A stretch of DNA of 64,000 nucleotides from Brachyspira alvinipulli ATCC 51933 (GTDB lineage: Bacteria > Spirochaetota > Brachyspiria > Brachyspirales > Brachyspiraceae). The translations under genes were made by a program, and so were the position numbers. The stretch lies in assembly GCF_000518245.1 (NCBI RefSeq), contig NZ_JADF01000019.1, positions 1-64,000 of the forward strand, read 5' to 3'. The notes under the pieces are model-generated. The model worked only from the letters and a program-made list of their open reading frames with translations. It was not told the origin of the DNA and searched no databases. Shown piece by piece: positions 3,627 through 12,576 of the stretch (the first letter of the stretch is position 1; every line of letters begins with the position of its first letter).

Positions 3627-5466
3627 ATGAAAAAAATTAACAGCATATCAGTAAAACTTCCATTCATTTTAAATATTGCTACTATAATTATATGTATATT
3701 TATAATATTCTCTCTTCTAAGCATTTCCACTAAAGAAATAAGCAGCTATGTAAATAAATATATAGAATCATCGGCAAGCGGATATTGTAATTTTTTAGAT
3801 AAAACAGTAGAAGAACAAACATTATTGATGGAAAGTTATTCAAGCATGCCTATAATAATAGATTATTTACAGAATGATGCTGTTTGGCTTGAAGGTACTA
3901 TATATATTACCTTACAAAAAGTACTTAATAATAATAAATATATAACTAATGCTTATATAGCATCAAAAGAATCAGATATTATAATTTCGTATAGCGGCAA
4001 CTCGTCAAGCTCTTCATCAAAAATATCTGAACAATATCCTGAACTATGGAATAATTTTATATCAAAAAATTATGAAGTAACAATATCAGAAACTATATAT
4101 AAATCCGATATGAATAATGGATTCTTTTTACCAATAATATGTCCTATTTTTGATTATTATGATACTTATTTAGGGGCATTTATAGGTTTTTTAGATTGGT
4201 CTTTAATAATTGAAGATAGTCTTAATAAATTTGGAAACACATTTTCAAAAGACAATACCATATTCATTTTAAATAAAGATAAAGAAATAGTATACCATAA
4301 TATAAGCTCTGAATTAAAAAATAAAGTTGGAATTAATATTCCAGATAATCAAAATTCAGGAATAATCAAATACAATTATTTTAACATAAATAAATTAGCA
4401 TTCTTCAAAAAAATGAACTCTATGCCTTGGGTACTTGCTGATGGAATATCCGAAAGGTTAATTTATTCTGCAAGAAATAAAATGCTATTTATAGGAATTA
4501 TTATAGGTTTATTGGGAATTATTTTATCCGTTTTATTCTCTATATATTATATAAGAAAAACTATTGAACCTATAAAACATATAGTTAAAGAGGCAAAAGA
4601 AATATCTATGGGTAATTTTTCTATAACATCTAATATAAAAACAAGAAATGATGAGATTGGTGAATTATCTCAATCATTTGATACTATGAGAAATAGATTT
4701 ATAGAAGTAATTTCTGAAGTATTAGCTTCATCTAAAGAAATAGCAAATACTGCTGAAGAGGTTCATAAAGGAAGTGAAGATCTAGCTCAAAGAACAGAAT
4801 ATCAGGCTTCAAGTCTTGAAGAAACTGCTTCTTCTATGGAAGAGATGGCTTCTACTATAAAATCATCCGCACAAAACTCTGTAGATGGAAATAAAGTTAT
4901 GATAGATTCTAAAAATGCTATATTAGAAGGTGGCAGTGTTATAGCTAATACAACAAAAATGATAGAAGATGTTTATGAAGCTAGTGCTAAAATAAAAGAT
5001 ATTACCAAAGTTATAGAAGGAATAGCTTTCCAAACTAATATACTTGCACTTAATGCTTCTGTAGAGGCTGCTCGTGCTGGTGAGCAGGGAAGAGGTTTTG
5101 CTGTTGTAGCAAGTGAGGTAAGAAACTTACCTCAAAACTCTCAAGCTTCTGCAAAAGATATAACTTTTGCTTATAGAAGATATATACGATAAAATAAATA
5201 AATCTGCTGAAATGGCTAGACATTCTCAGGAAATATTTAACAATATAGAAATAAAAATAGAAGAGACTTCTAAGATTATGAGTGATATAAGCCAAACAGC
5301 ATTGGAGCAGGAATCAGGAGTTGATCAAGTTAATACTGCTGTTAGCAAAATGGACAGTATAACTCAGCAGAATGCCGCTTTGGTAGAAGAATCTACAGCT
5401 GCTTCTAAATCTTTACTAGATCAAGCTAATCATTTGAAAGAGCTTATGAGTTTCTTTAAGCTTTAA
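3627..5466 (+). pseudogene. Methyl-accepting chemotaxis protein, frameshifted near the signalling tip
   Basis: The frame starting at 3627 has the same layout as its neighbour (membrane, Cache-like sensor, membrane, HAMP, signalling domain) but ends early at 5192. The rest of the signalling domain continues in another frame to 5466. The break is a run of four T at 5165-5168 where the two plus-strand paralogues have three (ACTTTGCTTATAG in the third gene). The adjacent NLAQNSQ motif reads NLPQNSQ here, an Ala-to-Pro change in the hairpin that an active receptor would be unlikely to tolerate. Both changes point to decay, although the single T could be a sequencing error. Confidence 0.85.
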
Positions 5467-5664
5467 TAAATATTTTAATCATAAAAACTTAAGAATTTAA
5501 TATATTATACGATAATATTGCCTTATATATATTAATTAATCTTTAATTAAAGATTACTAATTAACATAATTGACTTTTTTTGTTATTTAAATTATACTAT
5601 ACCCCATTGGTGTTAGTTTCTTTTATTAATTAATATTAATTATTATTTTTTAGTGAGTTTAATT

Positions 5665-7492
5665 ATGAAAAAATTTGATAGTATAGTTGTGAAAATTCCA
5701 TTAATTGTTAATATAATTATAGTAATATTATCTTTTACAATAATATCCACTTCAATAGCCATAGCAAGAAAAGCTATAAATAATGCAACATACTCAGGAT
5801 TTGAAACATCCGTTAACGGTTATTCAACATTGCTTGATACAATACTTAACGACCAATTAATAATAATGGATGCATATTCAAGAATACCTGCTGTAATAGA
5901 ATATATGGAAACAAGAAGCGAAGAAGTAAGAGACAGAGCAATACAAACTATGATTAATTTATTTGATAATAATGATTACATAGTTGCATTAGATTTGATA
6001 GATTTAGATGGAAAAGTTATAGAAGCATATGATGGAAATGCAGAAAATGCTGGTACAGATATAAAATCTAGATACCCTCAATTATGGCAAGAATTCGTTG
6101 ATTCAAAATATGATCATTCTACAAGCGATGAAATATACAAGTCAACTATAAATAATGGATATGTTCTTCCAATACTACATTCTGTTTACAATTTGGAAAA
6201 TAAACTTATAGGAAGTTTTGTAGCATTTGTTGATTGGTCAAGAATCATAAATGAAACTTTAGAAGATGCTAGAGCAGAATTATCTGAGAAAAAAACCATA
6301 TTTGTTTTAAATGATGATTTACAATGCGTATATCATAATATTGATTCAAGTATAGGAATTACAGCAAATGAATCTCTAAAAACTCCTGCTGGAAAAATCT
6401 CAGGTATATTTATATATACATTTAATGATGTTACTAGAACAGCTTTCTTTAAAAGAATGAAAACTCAGCCTTGGTTTATGATGGCTGGAATTACACATGA
6501 TTTATTATATGTTGAAAGCAGAAAAATGACTTTAATAGGAATCTTATTAGGAATAGCAGGTATTGTAGTGTCTTCTATAGTATCAGCTTTCTATATAGGA
6601 AAACTTATTAAACCGCTCAAAAATATAGTAGATGAGGCTCATCAAATGGCAGACGGTAATTTTATATTCACATCTAAAATAAATAAGAGAAAAGATGAGA
6701 TTGGAGAATTATCCCAGTCATTTGATATTATGAGAAATAGATTTATAGAAGTAATTTCAGATGTATTAGCTTCATCTAAAGAAATAGCAAATGCTGCTGA
6801 AGAACTTCATAAAGGAAGCGAAGATCTATCTCAAAGAACAGAATATCAGGCTTCAAGTCTTGAAGAAACTGCTTCTTCTATGGAAGAGATGGCTTCTACA
6901 TAAACCATCCGGAAATAATGTAATGATAGCATCAAGAAATGCTGTATTAGAAGGTGGCAGTGTTATAGCTAATACAACAAAAATGATAGAAGATGTTTAT
7001 GAAGCTAGTGCTAAAATAAAAGATATTACTAAAGTGATAGAAGGTATTGCTTTTCAAACTAATATACTTGCACTTAATGCTTCCGTAGAGGCTGCACGTG
7101 CCGGAGAGCAGGGAAGAGGCTTTGCTGTTGTAGCAAGCGAGGTAAGAAACTTAGCTCAGAACTCTCAGGCTTCTGCTAAAAACATCACTTTGCTTATAGA
7201 AGATATATACGATAAAATTAATAAATCAGCAGAAATGGCAAGACATTCTCAGGAAATATTTACAGATATAGAAATGAAAATAGAAGAGACTTCTAAGATT
7301 ATGAGCGATATAAGCCAAACAGCATTGGAGCAGGAATCAGGAGTTGATCAAGTTAATACTGCTGTTACTAAAATGGATAATATAACTCAGCAAAATGCTG
7401 CTTTGGTAGAAGAATCTACAGCTGCTTCTAAATCTTTACTAGATCAAGCTAATCATTTGGAAGAGCTCATGAGTTTCTTTAAAGTAAAATAA
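5665..7492 (+). pseudogene. Methyl-accepting chemotaxis protein, broken by a net 20-base deletion
   Basis: The start is taken at the ATG at 5665 (MKKFDSIVVK), which matches the paralogues. The first part (to 6903) carries the two membrane segments, Cache-like sensor and HAMP domain. Around 6898-6922 the bases coding for AQNSVD plus two more are missing compared with the intact copy, so the frame shifts. The remaining signalling hairpin and C-terminus (ending SFFKVK) run in another frame to 7492. The deletion lies in the methylation helix and cannot be a simple homopolymer error, so this copy is probably truly inactive unless a truncated receptor is functional. Confidence 0.85.
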
Positions 7493-7501
7493 AATATAAT
7501 A

Positions 7502-8338
7502 ATGAAATATTTATTATTGTTTATTACAGCATTGATTTTATCATGCAGTAATAATACCAATGAAAATAGTATATCTAATATTATAAGCAAAAATGAAATA
7601 GAGCCGAATAATACTATAGAGTATTCTCAATTTATAGATGCGGATACTCATATTAATGCTAGTTTTGATAATTCAAGCGATATAGATTATTATCATATAA
7701 GCCCTACTAATGGATTTGCAATGGATTTTAGTATTTCAATTGCAAATAAAGATGCAGCTGTTCAATTAGAATTATTAAACAGCAATAACACTTTATTAAA
7801 ATTAAATACTAAAGATATACTAAATTATGATTCAGTTATAAATTTAAAAGATATTTTATTTGAAGAGAGCAACTATTTTTTAAAACTTAATTCTGATTTG
7901 GAATCAAAATACGAATTAAAATTTACATTTAAAAATAATGTTATAATAAATAATGAAAAAGAGCCTAATAATACATTAAGCAGCCCTGATTACATAAAAT
8001 CCCCTAATGAACATGTATACGGATATTTCATTAAAAGTTCTTCAAATATAACAATAGACAATATACTAAAACCATATATTAAACCACAAAACATAATAGA
8101 CATAGATTGTTATAAAATAGAAAATTCTACAGATATAAATACTTCTATAGATATAATTTTGCATGATGCTGATAATGCAGATATGGTTCTATTTGATGAA
8201 AATTTTAATTATTTAAAGTATGGAAATAATAATATATCCTCAGATTTTCAATCTGGAAAAGTTTATTATATAGCATTAATATGTTATGGAGATAAATCAA
8301 TTACAAAAAGATATAGTATTCATTATAAATTTAATTAA
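7502..8338 (+). CDS. Lipoprotein with two PPC-like beta domains
   Basis: A 278-residue lipoprotein: signal peptide with lipobox LILSC (Cys15), then two modules each introduced by an E-P-N-N-T motif (about residues 36 and 154), followed by D-x-D-x-Y-type strands (DIDYYHI, DIDCYKI). EPNNT-led modules with a DxDxY segment are the signature of bacterial pre-peptidase C-terminal (PPC)-like domains, which are secreted beta sandwiches. No protease domain is attached. The gene begins ten bases after the preceding receptor gene and may be co-transcribed with it. Function unknown; a surface or periplasmic binding role is plausible. Confidence 0.7.
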   Translation: MKYLLLFITALILSCSNNTNENSISNIISKNEIEPNNTIEYSQFIDADTHINASFDNSSDIDYYHISPTNGFAMDFSISIANKDAAVQLELLNSNNTLLKLNTKDILNYDSVINLKDILFEESNYFLKLNSDLESKYELKFTFKNNVIINNEKEPNNTLSSPDYIKSPNEHVYGYFIKSSSNITIDNILKPYIKPQNIIDIDCYKIENSTDINTSIDIILHDADNADMVLFDENFNYLKYGNNNISSDFQSGKVYYIALICYGDKSITKRYSIHYKFN

Positions 8339-8353
8339 TATAATTTTATTGTA

Positions 8354-8382
8354 TTGACAAAGCATTATTTTTAATATAAAAT
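8354..8382 (+). promoter_or_regulatory. Promoter for the NhaC leader and gene
   Basis: TTGACA at 8354-8359 and TAAAAT at 8377-8382 are separated by 17 bases, a near-consensus sigma-70 promoter. Transcription would start near 8389, giving a leader of about 215 bases that contains the leader peptide and attenuator. Confidence 0.7.
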
Positions 8383-8415
8383 AGCTTTACTATTAAAAGT
8401 AAAGGTTAATTATAA

Positions 8416-8475
8416 ATGACTAATTTCTTTTTTGATAAAAAGCTAAAAAAACCCTTCTTTCTTTGGGAGTGCTGA
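8416..8475 (+). CDS. Phe-rich leader peptide of a transcription attenuator
   Basis: A 19-codon frame, MTNFFFDKKLKKPFFLWEC, with AAAGG at 8401-8405 ten bases before the ATG. Five of the 19 residues are Phe (residues 4-6, 14 and 15), followed by Leu-Trp. The stop codon (8473-8475) lies just past a GGGAG segment that can pair with the terminator's left arm. Position, composition and overlap with alternative hairpins match amino-acid leader peptides such as that of pheA. Ribosome stalling when charged tRNA-Phe is scarce would favour read-through into the transporter gene. This mechanism is inferred from sequence alone. Confidence 0.7.
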   Translation: MTNFFFDKKLKKPFFLWEC

Positions 8476-8536
8476 ATTATTATTTATACAAATATAAAAA
8501 ATAATTATATAGCTCCCTAGTAAGGGGGTTTTTTTT
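8465..8536 (+). terminator. Attenuator: antiterminator/terminator pair before the NhaC gene
   Basis: Terminator: CTCCCT (8513-8518), loop AGTA, AGGGGG (8523-8528), then eight T (8529-8536). Competing antiterminator: GGGAG (8465-8469) pairs with CTCCC (8513-8517), and inside it 8475-8488 pairs with 8493-8506 with one mismatch. A weaker upstream option pairs CTTCT (8454-8458) with the same GGGAG. A ribosome at the leader stop codon would cover GGGAG and allow termination; one stalled at the first Phe run would leave it free. Confidence 0.75.
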
Positions 8537-8603
8537 ATTTAAAGGATTTTAGAAATATATGATAACTTATAACCATTAAAAAAATTATTTAGGAGTGAAC
8601 ATT

Positions 8604-10244
8604 ATGGAACATTATGGTTTATTAGGCATCATACCGCCACTTTTAGCTATCATACTAGCCTTAGTAACCAAAGAGGTAATTATTTCTCTTGCTCTTGGTA
8701 TATTGTCAGGTACTTTAATAATAGCACATGGTAATGTATTTACAGCAATTACAATATTTACAGATAAGGTTGCAGAAATGAGCGGAGACGCTTGGAATAT
8801 ACGCATACTTTTATTCTGTGCATTGCTTGGTGCTTTTGTAAGTATGCTTTCTAAAACAGGAGCTACTAAAGCTTTTGGTTTATGGGCTAGCAAATACCTT
8901 AAAACAAAAAAAAGCATATTAATATTTACTTGGTTTTTCGGACTTATAATATTTATAGATGATTATTTTAATAGTTTATCAGTGGGAACAGTTATGCGTC
9001 CTGCTTTTGACCAAAATAAAATTTCAAGAGCAAAATTGGCATATATATTAGACTCAACTGCCGCACCAGTATGTATACTTGCCCCAATATCAACTTGGGT
9101 AGTAACTGTTATGAGTTATATAAGAGATTCTGAAGGTTTTGAATCATTAAATATGAGTGAGTTTGTTTTCTTTATAAAAATGATTCCTTATTCTGTTTAT
9201 CCTCTTCTTGCATTAGCTTTTGTTGTTCTTATGTCTTTGGTATTTAAAGATTTCGGACCTATGAAAAGAAGCGAGGATGATGCTTTAAATGGAAAACTTT
9301 TCAATGAAGAGTTATACGGAGCATGTCCTGGAAATATGGAAACTTCATCAAATAATAAAGCAAAATGGTATGATATGGTTATAGCTATAGTTATACTTAT
9401 AATAGTATGTATTACAATGTTCCCAGTAACTACATATATGGGATTAGTTGGAAATGACGGAATAACTACTTTCTCACAAGCTATGTTAAGCGTATCTTTA
9501 AATCAGGCATTTTTAGATACTGATGCTTCAAAAGCTTTATTCTATGGTGCGGTAATTTCTCTTATAATAATATATATATACTATATCGCCAGAAGATTGT
9601 TAAGCATACGTTCTGCTGGAAACTCTATCATGGAAGGAATAAAATCAATGGTTCCTGCTTTAGTAGTACTTGCATTAGCTTGGTCTATAGGAAGCGTTAT
9701 AAAATCTTCTCCTGCTGACGGAGGACTTGGACTTGCTGCTTTTCTTTCTGAAGCTGTAAAAGGAGGCGGATTCCCTCTTTGGATACTTCCTGCAATAGGA
9801 TATTTACTAGGATGTGTTATTGCTTTTTCTACCGGTACAAGCTGGGGAACTTTCGCTATACTTATACCTATAGTTATACCTATAGCTAACGGACTTGCTA
9901 TGGGTAATGGATACACAGGCGATGCTCTTTTAAATGTACTTTTAATAAGCGTTGGTTCTGTAGTTTCAGGTGCAGTATTCGGAGATCACTGTTCTCCTAT
10001 ATCTGACACAACAATACTTTCTTCTACTGGAAGCAATTGTCCTTTGCTTGAACATGTTGCTACACAAATTCCTTATGCCGGTTTAGTAGCTACAGCAGCA
10101 TTTATAGGAGTAGTTGTAGGAGGTATTACTTTAAGTCCAATAGCTGCTTTATTAGTAGGATTTATAGTAATGTGCGTACTTGCTATGCTTGCTCCTAATT
10201 TTTATGATAAAATATCTAAAATTAAATTATCATCTTCTAAATAA
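8604..10244 (+). CDS. NhaC-family Na+-coupled transporter
   Basis: A 546-residue membrane protein with about 11-13 hydrophobic segments. Family features include the acidic motif FIDDYFNSLSVGTVMRP and the conserved C-terminal region FSTGTSWGTFAILIPI followed by FGDHCSPISDTTILSS, typical of COG1757 (NhaC/MleN-type) antiporters. The family was named for Na+/H+ exchange, but members also carry organic acids or amino acids. The Phe-rich leader peptide upstream suggests that this member moves phenylalanine or related aromatic residues; that is inference. The ATG at 8604 is chosen because AGGAG (8591-8595) is eight bases upstream. Single-gene unit, closed by a strong terminator. Confidence 0.85.
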   Translation: MEHYGLLGIIPPLLAIILALVTKEVIISLALGILSGTLIIAHGNVFTAITIFTDKVAEMSGDAWNIRILLFCALLGAFVSMLSKTGATKAFGLWASKYLKTKKSILIFTWFFGLIIFIDDYFNSLSVGTVMRPAFDQNKISRAKLAYILDSTAAPVCILAPISTWVVTVMSYIRDSEGFESLNMSEFVFFIKMIPYSVYPLLALAFVVLMSLVFKDFGPMKRSEDDALNGKLFNEELYGACPGNMETSSNNKAKWYDMVIAIVILIIVCITMFPVTTYMGLVGNDGITTFSQAMLSVSLNQAFLDTDASKALFYGAVISLIIIYIYYIARRLLSIRSAGNSIMEGIKSMVPALVVLALAWSIGSVIKSSPADGGLGLAAFLSEAVKGGGFPLWILPAIGYLLGCVIAFSTGTSWGTFAILIPIVIPIANGLAMGNGYTGDALLNVLLISVGSVVSGAVFGDHCSPISDTTILSSTGSNCPLLEHVATQIPYAGLVATAAFIGVVVGGITLSPIAALLVGFIVMCVLAMLAPNFYDKISKIKLSSSK

Positions 10245-10734: not shown

Positions 10735-12576
10735 TTAATGAACTTTGAAGAAAGACATTAAATCTTCTAAATGCTTAGCCTGATCCAATAAAGACTTAGA
10801 AGCTGCTGTTGACTCTTCTACCAATGCCGCATTTTGCTGAGTAATATCATCCATTTTTGATACAGCCATATTTATCTGATCAACTCCTGTTTCCTGTTCT
10901 AATGCGGTATTACTTATATCATTCATTATCTTTGAAGTTTCTGTTATTTTTATTTCTATATTTGTAAATATTTCCTGAGAATGTCTTGCCATTTCTGCTG
11001 ATTTATTAATTTTTTCATAAATATCTTCTATAAGTAAAGTGATGTTTTTAGCAGAAGCTTGCGAGTTTTGTGCTAAATTTCTAACTTCAGATGCTACTAC
11101 TGCAAAGCCTCTTCCTTGATCTCCTGCTCTTGCTGCCTCTACTGATGCATTTAAAGCAAGTATGTTAGTTTGAAAAGCTATATCTTCTATCACTTTTGTA
11201 ATATCTCTTATTTTAGAACTAGCCTCATAAACTTCTTCTATCATTTTAGTAGTATCTGCTATAACATTCCCCCCCCTCTAATACAGCATTTTTAGAATCC
11301 GACATAACACTATTACAATCAATTGAATTTTGTGCAGACGACTTTATAGTTGAAGACATTTCTTCCATAGAACTTGCTGTTTCTTCCAGACTTGAAGCTT
11401 GATATTCTGTTCTCCTTGCCAAATCTTCGCTTCCCTGATAAAGTTCATTGGCTGCATTAGTTATTTCTCTGGAAGATATTAATATTTCCTTTATCATATA
11501 TGAAAATTTAGATCTCATTTCACAAAATGAATTTAATATTTCTCCGATTTCATCATTTCTTAATTCTATATTAGAACATATAGTTAAATTTCCAAGAGAT
11601 ATTTCTCTAGCTTCTTCAACTATATACTTTATAGGTTTAATGGTTCTTCTTATATAGATAAATGAAAATAAAACAGAAATTATTATGCCTATTATTCCTA
11701 TTATAATTCCATTAAAAAGCATTTTTCTGTTAGCCGAATAAATTAATGACTCTGAAATTCCGTCTGCAATAGTCCAAGCATTGAATTCATTTTTTTAAAA
11801 AATGCTAATTTATTTATATTAAAATAATTATATTTAATTACTCCTGCACTTTCGTCTAAAGGTATATTAAAATTAATTTTATTTTTAAGCTCTTCAATTA
11901 TATTATGATATACATATTCTTTATTATTATTAATAATAAAAATCGAATTTTCCTTTGAAAAAGTATTTCCAAATCTATCCAAACTATCTCTAATTATTAA
12001 AGACCAATCAATAAAACCTATAAAAGCTCCTAAAAAATTATTATCATAATCAAAAATAGGATGCAGCATTGGAATTACATATCCATTATTTATATCAGAT
12101 TTATATATTGTATCAGCTATAATTACATCATAATTTTTAGATATGAAAGTATTCCATAAGTCAGGATATACCCCAGAAACTTTAATAGCTTTTTCAGCAT
12201 AATCTCCTTTATATGATGTTAAGACAGTTGAATCAGGAGAAAGTATATATGCATTTGTTATATATTTATTATTATCTAAAACCTTTTGCAAAGTAATAAA
12301 AATATCAGATTCCATCTCATTCGAATTATTTTTAAGATAATCTATTATTATAGGCATGCTGGAATAACTTTCTACAAGTAATATTTGATCTTCTATAACT
12401 TTATCCAAAAAATTACAATATCCATTTGCTGAGGACTCCATATATTTATTAACATAATTCATAATTTCTTTTGTAGAAGCATTGAGCAAAGATAAAATTA
12501 TAAATGAAGATATGATAACTATGGAAATGCTTAAAATAAATGGTAATTTTACTGATATACTATTAAATTTTTTCAT
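10735..12576 (-). pseudogene. Methyl-accepting chemotaxis protein with two frame breaks, one in a G8 tract
   Basis: Three fragments in different frames add up to one receptor: 12576-11743 (first membrane segment and Cache-like sensor), 11722-11246 (second membrane segment, HAMP, first methylation helix) and 11244-10735 (signalling hairpin to C-terminus FFKVH). The first break is one missing C near 11783: paralogues read ATGCCTTGG, this copy ATGCTTGG. The second is a run of eight G (minus strand; 11269-11276) in the codons for LEGG, where seven would restore the frame. Apart from these breaks the protein sequence is well conserved, so the gene is either recently lost, phase-variable or mis-sequenced. 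Confidence 0.85.
11269..11276 (-). repeat. Poly-G (8) tract inside a chemoreceptor gene
   Basis: Eight consecutive C on the plus strand (G8 in the gene). It is exceptional in so AT-rich a sequence and lies exactly at a frame break. Seven or ten G would keep the reading frame. The other receptors have a mixed GAAGGTGGCAG here. Confidence 0.8.

Follow-up and report, generated by a model that had tools for sequence, protein, structure and literature searches.

Leader-peptide attenuators are classically those of Trp, Phe, His, Thr, Leu and Ile/Val, and the control of lysine genes is usually credited to a riboswitch. Attenuators of the thrL, trpL and pheL type share a short translated ORF, tandem control codons, an antiterminator and a terminator that exclude each other, and a U-run. 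In the textbook form, a protector hairpin between regions 1 and 2 ensures termination in the absence of translation, although this hairpin is not universal. Candidate Cys leader-peptide attenuators in Actinobacteria are described in the available part of an earlier study (PMC1262725). We found no description of a lysine leader-peptide attenuator in the open-access literature, including that on attenuation in Brachyspira and other spirochaetes, and this absence is provisional. The nearest precedent is an upstream ORF of Sinorhizobium with six Thr and three Lys codons, for which the accessible text suggests a leader peptide (PMC10117765). As regards the NhaC superfamily, lysW is placed in it, under lysine riboswitches, in the portion available of PMC5584792. 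An excerpt of a 2024 review treats the function of a riboswitch-controlled NhaC gene of C. difficile as unknown and names lysine transport and pH control as possibilities (PMC11477304). Tyr T-boxes precede Firmicutes NhaC genes according to the accessible part of PMC2494555, which is likewise amino-acid control of an NhaC-family gene.

Here we consider a leader in the gut spirochaete Brachyspira alvinipulli ATCC 51933, in a window (the whole stretch of DNA analysed) of 64,000 nt. A preliminary description had read it as a pheA-type, Phe-sensing attenuator of an aromatic amino acid transporter. Its conservation, codon pattern and modelled folds, together with the lysine riboswitches of homologues, make it probable that this is a ribosome-mediated attenuator that senses the charging of lysyl-tRNA and controls a LysW-like, predicted lysine transporter. 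In our best reading, the Brachyspira attenuator stands in for the lysine riboswitch used elsewhere. It would differ from the thrL, trpL and pheL type in its control amino acid, Lys, and it differs in its spirochaete host and in having region 2 inside the last codons of the ORF. The lysine riboswitch (L-box, RF00168) found before lysW/NhaC genes serves the same gene superfamily and presumably the same lysine-shortage signal, but here there is no aptamer and sensing would be by codons.

All features lie on the + strand. A sigma-70-type promoter (8354-8382) consists of TTGACA (8354-8359), a spacer of 17 nt and TAAAAT (8377-8382). A TTGACA-type promoter-like match is present upstream of 25/25 orthologues; for L007 and L008 the listed match is a spurious later one, and the conserved TTGACAAAG promoter is visible in their sequences. 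The presumed 5' end of the transcript carries an inverted repeat, CTTTACT...AGTAAAG (8385-8404), which is conserved in most orthologues. The leader ORF (8416-8475) encodes MTNFFFDKKLKKPFFLWEC and a stop codon; its 19 codons include five Phe, as originally described, four Lys and one Trp. Codon positions are counted below from the invariant TGG (W). The transporter gene (8604-10244) has its ribosome-binding site at 8591-8595 and matches PF03553 with 149.7 bits against a cut-off of 23, in agreement with its earlier assignment to the NhaC family. Shared with LysW are this NhaC-family domain and homologues under lysine riboswitches. No solved homologue was found by sequence at E <= 0.01.

An orthologue of the gene is present in 25/26 Brachyspira genomes searched, and comparison of the leader across the genus, a check proposed with the preliminary description, showed a leader of the same design with its frame kept ahead of 24 of the 25 orthologues. 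Between the codons conserved at the N- and C-terminal ends, leader lengths differ by multiples of 3. One of the 24 leaders (L020) has no ATG, and its start would be ATT or an internal TTG. The remaining orthologue (L027, genome G001) retains the promoter, the inverted repeat and the gene, but both leader and terminator have been lost; it is presumably a natural variant with constitutive expression. A covariance model of the element found the same locus in 24/26 genus genomes (E <= 8.1e-10 in 23 and 1.2e-4 in one) and no second genuine locus in the 26, the remaining rows being reverse-strand shadows and one chance-level row (G001, E 0.495). The element is confirmed as real and beyond chance, and leader-peptide attenuation in a spirochaete, as first proposed, is well supported. 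No attenuator leader was seen by eye in 25 upstream regions of homologues from other spirochaetes, so the element appears to be specific to the genus. By eye, we also saw no leader of such kind before lysS or lysA of the same genome (G000), which speaks against the lysine reading.

The intrinsic terminator (8511-8536) is formed by region 3 (CTCCC), region 4 (GGGGG) and T8, with a stem at 8511-8530 around CTCCCT/AGGGGG and the T-run at 8529-8536; stem and T-run are found in 24/24 leaders. The left arm of the antiterminator is region 2, UGGGAG (8464-8469), which covers the Trp-Glu codons. Pairing of its GGGAG (8465-8469) with CTCCC (8513-8517) is possible over an interrupted AU helix (8475-8506), and the fold of this segment has -15.3 kcal/mol. 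The two alternatives noted at the outset, a GGGAG/CTCCC antiterminator and a T8 terminator, are both present and are mutually exclusive in the fold model. The AU-rich inner helix, described as extending the antiterminator, does occur in the fold, but its excess over shuffles is modest (p < 0.05 in only 7/24 leaders, mean z -1.36). In region 2 the TGG is conserved in 24/24 leaders and GGGAG in 23/24, with GGAG in L028. Region 2:3 pairs hardly vary, and covariation support for them is therefore thin.

The preliminary description had missed the conserved Lys codons and an element complementary to the 3' arm of the terminator. The latter, region 1 (CCCTTCTT, 8452-8459), spans codons W-4 to W-2 and can pair with region 4 and more weakly with region 2. 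The 1:4 pairing exceeds shuffles (median p 0.05) and the 1:2 pairing does not (median p 0.29); these p values are non-independent, since the leaders are related. Two covarying columns give the 1:4 pairing modest support. As minimum-free-energy folds often have 2:3 nested inside 1:4, the folding model suggests a nested antiterminator. Region 1 as a protector of region 2 was an idea from inspection to which shuffles gave no support, and the element thus differs from the thrL, trpL and pheL type in having no protector better than chance.

Tandem Lys-Lys occurs in 24/24 leaders. The proposed control codons are AAA AAG at W-9 and W-8 (8437-8442), where Lys is found in 23/24 leaders at each position; in L018, which departs from this, a deletion has left Lys-Lys at W-6/W-5. 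The second pair, AAA AAA at W-6 and W-5 (8446-8451), is looser, with at least one Lys of two in 24/24. The codons are AAA in 15 and AAG in 8 leaders at W-9, and AAG in 14 and AAA in 9 at W-8; AAC and AAT are absent. On the gene tree without L018, about 5 parsimony changes fall at W-9/W-8 and all are synonymous third-position A/G changes, while the neighbouring codons W-10, W-7 and W-4 change often. In A-dominated spacer columns, 15/34 alternatives are A to G, and at this rate five synonymous changes in a row would have a chance of about 0.02. Lys makes up 20.9% of leader codons compared to 8.5% in long window ORFs, and Phe 16.2% compared to 5.6%. Against the lysine reading, Lys is common in this AT-rich genome, so that A-richness could account for part of the Lys signal, and Phe is equally enriched.

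Sensing of Phe, with Phe codons 4-6 as control codons of an aromatic amino acid transporter, has in its favour the five Phe of the window leader and the at least one Phe near the N-terminus of 24/24 leaders, and, by geometry in the folding model, the early Phe codons (W-13 to W-11) could act as control codons since they lie within the read-through zone. Tyr T-boxes carried by some NhaC genes, in the accessible part of PMC2494555, would also fit. However, Phe runs in the usable zone are found in only 5/24 leaders (L004, L005, L006, L011, L013). No Phe column exceeds 18/24, and the one that reaches it (W-3) falls within the termination zone and overlaps with region 1. The AGCTTC element of L028 is in another frame. 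Phe14, Phe15 and Trp17 are positioned where a stalled ribosome would mask GGGAG. The Rfam Phe_leader model (RF01859) gives a weak overall match (31.4 bits, E 0.0031), but this is below its gathering score of 55. Nor was a leader seen by eye before pheA of the same genome (G000). Control by Phe as the main reading was therefore rejected on the scarcity of Phe runs, the position of the late Phe codons and the lysine riboswitches of homologues, and we regard it as very unlikely; the pheA-type sensor of the preliminary description is not supported. Phe may still contribute to some extent, given the N-terminal Phe kept in all leaders.

The leaders were truncated at the edge of the ribosome (A-site base + 11), and the pairing of region 3 was computed for each stall position. 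Stalls from W-13 to W-8 favour read-through, with mean P(terminator) of 0.20-0.23 over the 24 leaders, and from W-12 to W-8 (mean 0.20-0.22) P(terminator) is below 0.5 in 20/24. The mean then rises to 0.47 at W-7, 0.57 at W-6, 0.65 at W-5 and 0.70 at W-4. Stalls at W-3 or later give the terminator (mean at least 0.91), with 0/24 leaders below 0.5. The boundary shifts one codon for a 3-nt change in the ribosome footprint. Before region 4 is transcribed, stalls from W-13 to W-4 keep region 3 sequestered (0.99-1.00), and stalls from W-2 on leave it mostly free. By this stall geometry, the Lys codons at W-9/W-8 can serve as control codons, as can those at W-6/W-5 on kinetic grounds; Phe at W-3/W-2 and Trp cannot. 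Against the lysine model, stalls at W-6/W-5 lean to the terminator at equilibrium. As a yardstick we used E. coli thrL, for which clear read-through is confined to the Thr/Ile run (P(anti) 0.87 at codon 11). The model responds to a known attenuator, albeit over a narrow interval.

The same geometry bears on the invariant TGG, through which Trp might be sensed. This codon is kept in 24/24 leaders and stays in frame in L028 despite shifted neighbouring bases. However, a ribosome stalled on it would mask region 2 and tip the RNA towards termination (P(terminator) 0.94), the opposite of what is needed, and the GG is required anyway for pairing with region 3. We rejected Trp control on this stall geometry and consider it extremely unlikely. 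The leader ends in Trp-Glu-Cys (8464-8472), with the TGG seemingly more invariant than pairing alone needs.

Returning to lysine, the lysyl-tRNA attenuator would act as follows. When lysine is plentiful, the ribosome would pass the Lys codons to the leader end and cover UGGGAG. By masking region 2, the terminating ribosome would leave CTCCC free to pair with GGGGG, and transcription would stop at T8. When lysine is scarce, the ribosome would wait on the tandem Lys codons W-9/W-8 with its front edge just upstream of region 1; in the model, the edge of a ribosome whose A site holds W-8 falls immediately upstream of region 1. A stall there would therefore let 2:3 pair and 1:4 become possible, no terminator would form and the transporter would be transcribed. 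Lysine starvation would thus be expected to raise read-through.

With no ribosome present, read-through is predicted in 18/24 leaders, in contrast to thrL, for which the model gives termination (P(terminator) 0.996). Since there is no 1:2 protector better than chance and the naked RNA is predicted to read through in most leaders, the Brachyspira attenuator departs from the textbook form. A fuller reading, which we offer tentatively and as somewhat short of an even chance, is that this is the first known lysine-codon attenuator, a riboswitch replacement that is protector-free and ON by default, with a nested double antiterminator left open by tandem Lys. On that account, the tandem Lys codons would be the last possible position leaving the nested antiterminator open, and successful translation of the leader would switch the transporter off. 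The default read-through also suits a general sensor of translation failure, in which any block of leader translation, including by ribosome-targeting drugs, turns the transporter on. A sub-threshold match of the transporter to Tet(35) (163.7 bits, cut-off 750) points the same way. But such a sensor leaves the conserved Lys-Lys and the lysine riboswitches of homologues unexplained, and as a sole explanation it is very unlikely, although it could coexist with the lysine model.

Evidence on the substrate comes from homologues. Bacterial and archaeal genomes were scanned by alignment, and out of 527 homologous places the best 80 (L060-L139) were retained, picked by peptide patterns and score and not at random. 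One of them, L060, is the orthologous locus of Brachyspira sp. G79 (92% identical); the other 79 and L034 were searched for Rfam families. Among these 79 loci outside the genus, a lysine riboswitch lies upstream in at least 21, on the same strand and with its end about 140 to 420 nt upstream of the matched coding stretch. The number is a lower bound because some loci have little upstream sequence. The same 79 of the best 80 contain no T-box, and none was matched at E <= 10 within 8000-8700 of the window, unlike the NhaC genes with a Tyr T-box. The lysine riboswitches and the lack of T-boxes in the 79 loci stand against Phe sensing. The leader itself was searched with Rfam for a T-box or lysine riboswitch, and neither was found. 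Across the 26 Brachyspira genomes no lysine riboswitch (RF00168) was detected, compared to 4/14 control genomes. Aromatic amino acid transport, as first suggested, is unsupported, since the homologues of this transporter carry lysine riboswitches.

Against the lysine reading, identity to the homologues that bear a riboswitch is about 40%, and these come from neighbouring lineages outside the spirochaete clade. In the tree, a riboswitch-free spirochaete clade stands beside riboswitch lineages (L101; 20 rows in a 70-row group), and other NhaC paralogues fall outside. As this tree was built quickly and has long paralogue-outgroup branches and several open forks, we used it for bracketing only. 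Spirochaete orthologues outside Brachyspira have neither riboswitch nor attenuator in the regions scanned or read, which likewise counts against the lysine reading. In 20 more distant NhaC paralogue loci there was no T-box, and the only lysine riboswitch was one already found above (L144 is the L079 gene).

If one transporter family is under two unrelated kinds of lysine sensor, this would speak for a lysine carrier, and lysine would then be the substrate. The protein could instead be a cation/proton antiporter for pH balance under lysine-responsive attenuation, in line with its PF03553 annotation and with the option named for the C. difficile homologue, whose function is called unknown, in the available part of PMC11477304. 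However, a lysine carrier is the simpler match for a family with two unrelated lysine-responsive types of control, and we find the antiporter unlikely. If the lysine attenuator is true, a lysine-codon attenuator in a spirochaete widens both the amino acids and the phyla of attenuation, and gives mechanistically unrelated evidence on the function of riboswitch-controlled NhaC genes such as that of C. difficile (excerpt of PMC11477304). All 26 genus genomes have lysA, so Brachyspira can probably make lysine, and import would save the cost of biosynthesis.

A second spirochaete NhaC subgroup (L058, L059, L088, L116, L117, L131) is about 40% identical, with riboswitch and attenuator absent in the regions scanned or printed. 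Among viral contigs, one contig, found twice, carries a homologue: IMG/VR contig L034 (3561-5015), 37% identical to the window protein, with a tRNA gene as well. This contig may be host DNA.

A crude scan of the window for leader-type attenuators returned the 8354-8536 element and further candidates, some overlapping gene ends. Just upstream of the promoter, 7502-8338 encodes a putative lipoprotein of 278 aa with an LSC motif near its N-terminus and no Pfam or NCBIfam match. Three genes at 3627-5466, 5653-7492 and 10735-12576, which from their translations we take to be methyl-accepting-chemotaxis-like, look frameshifted, each being broken up into two or three ORFs that overlap or abut and lie in different frames.
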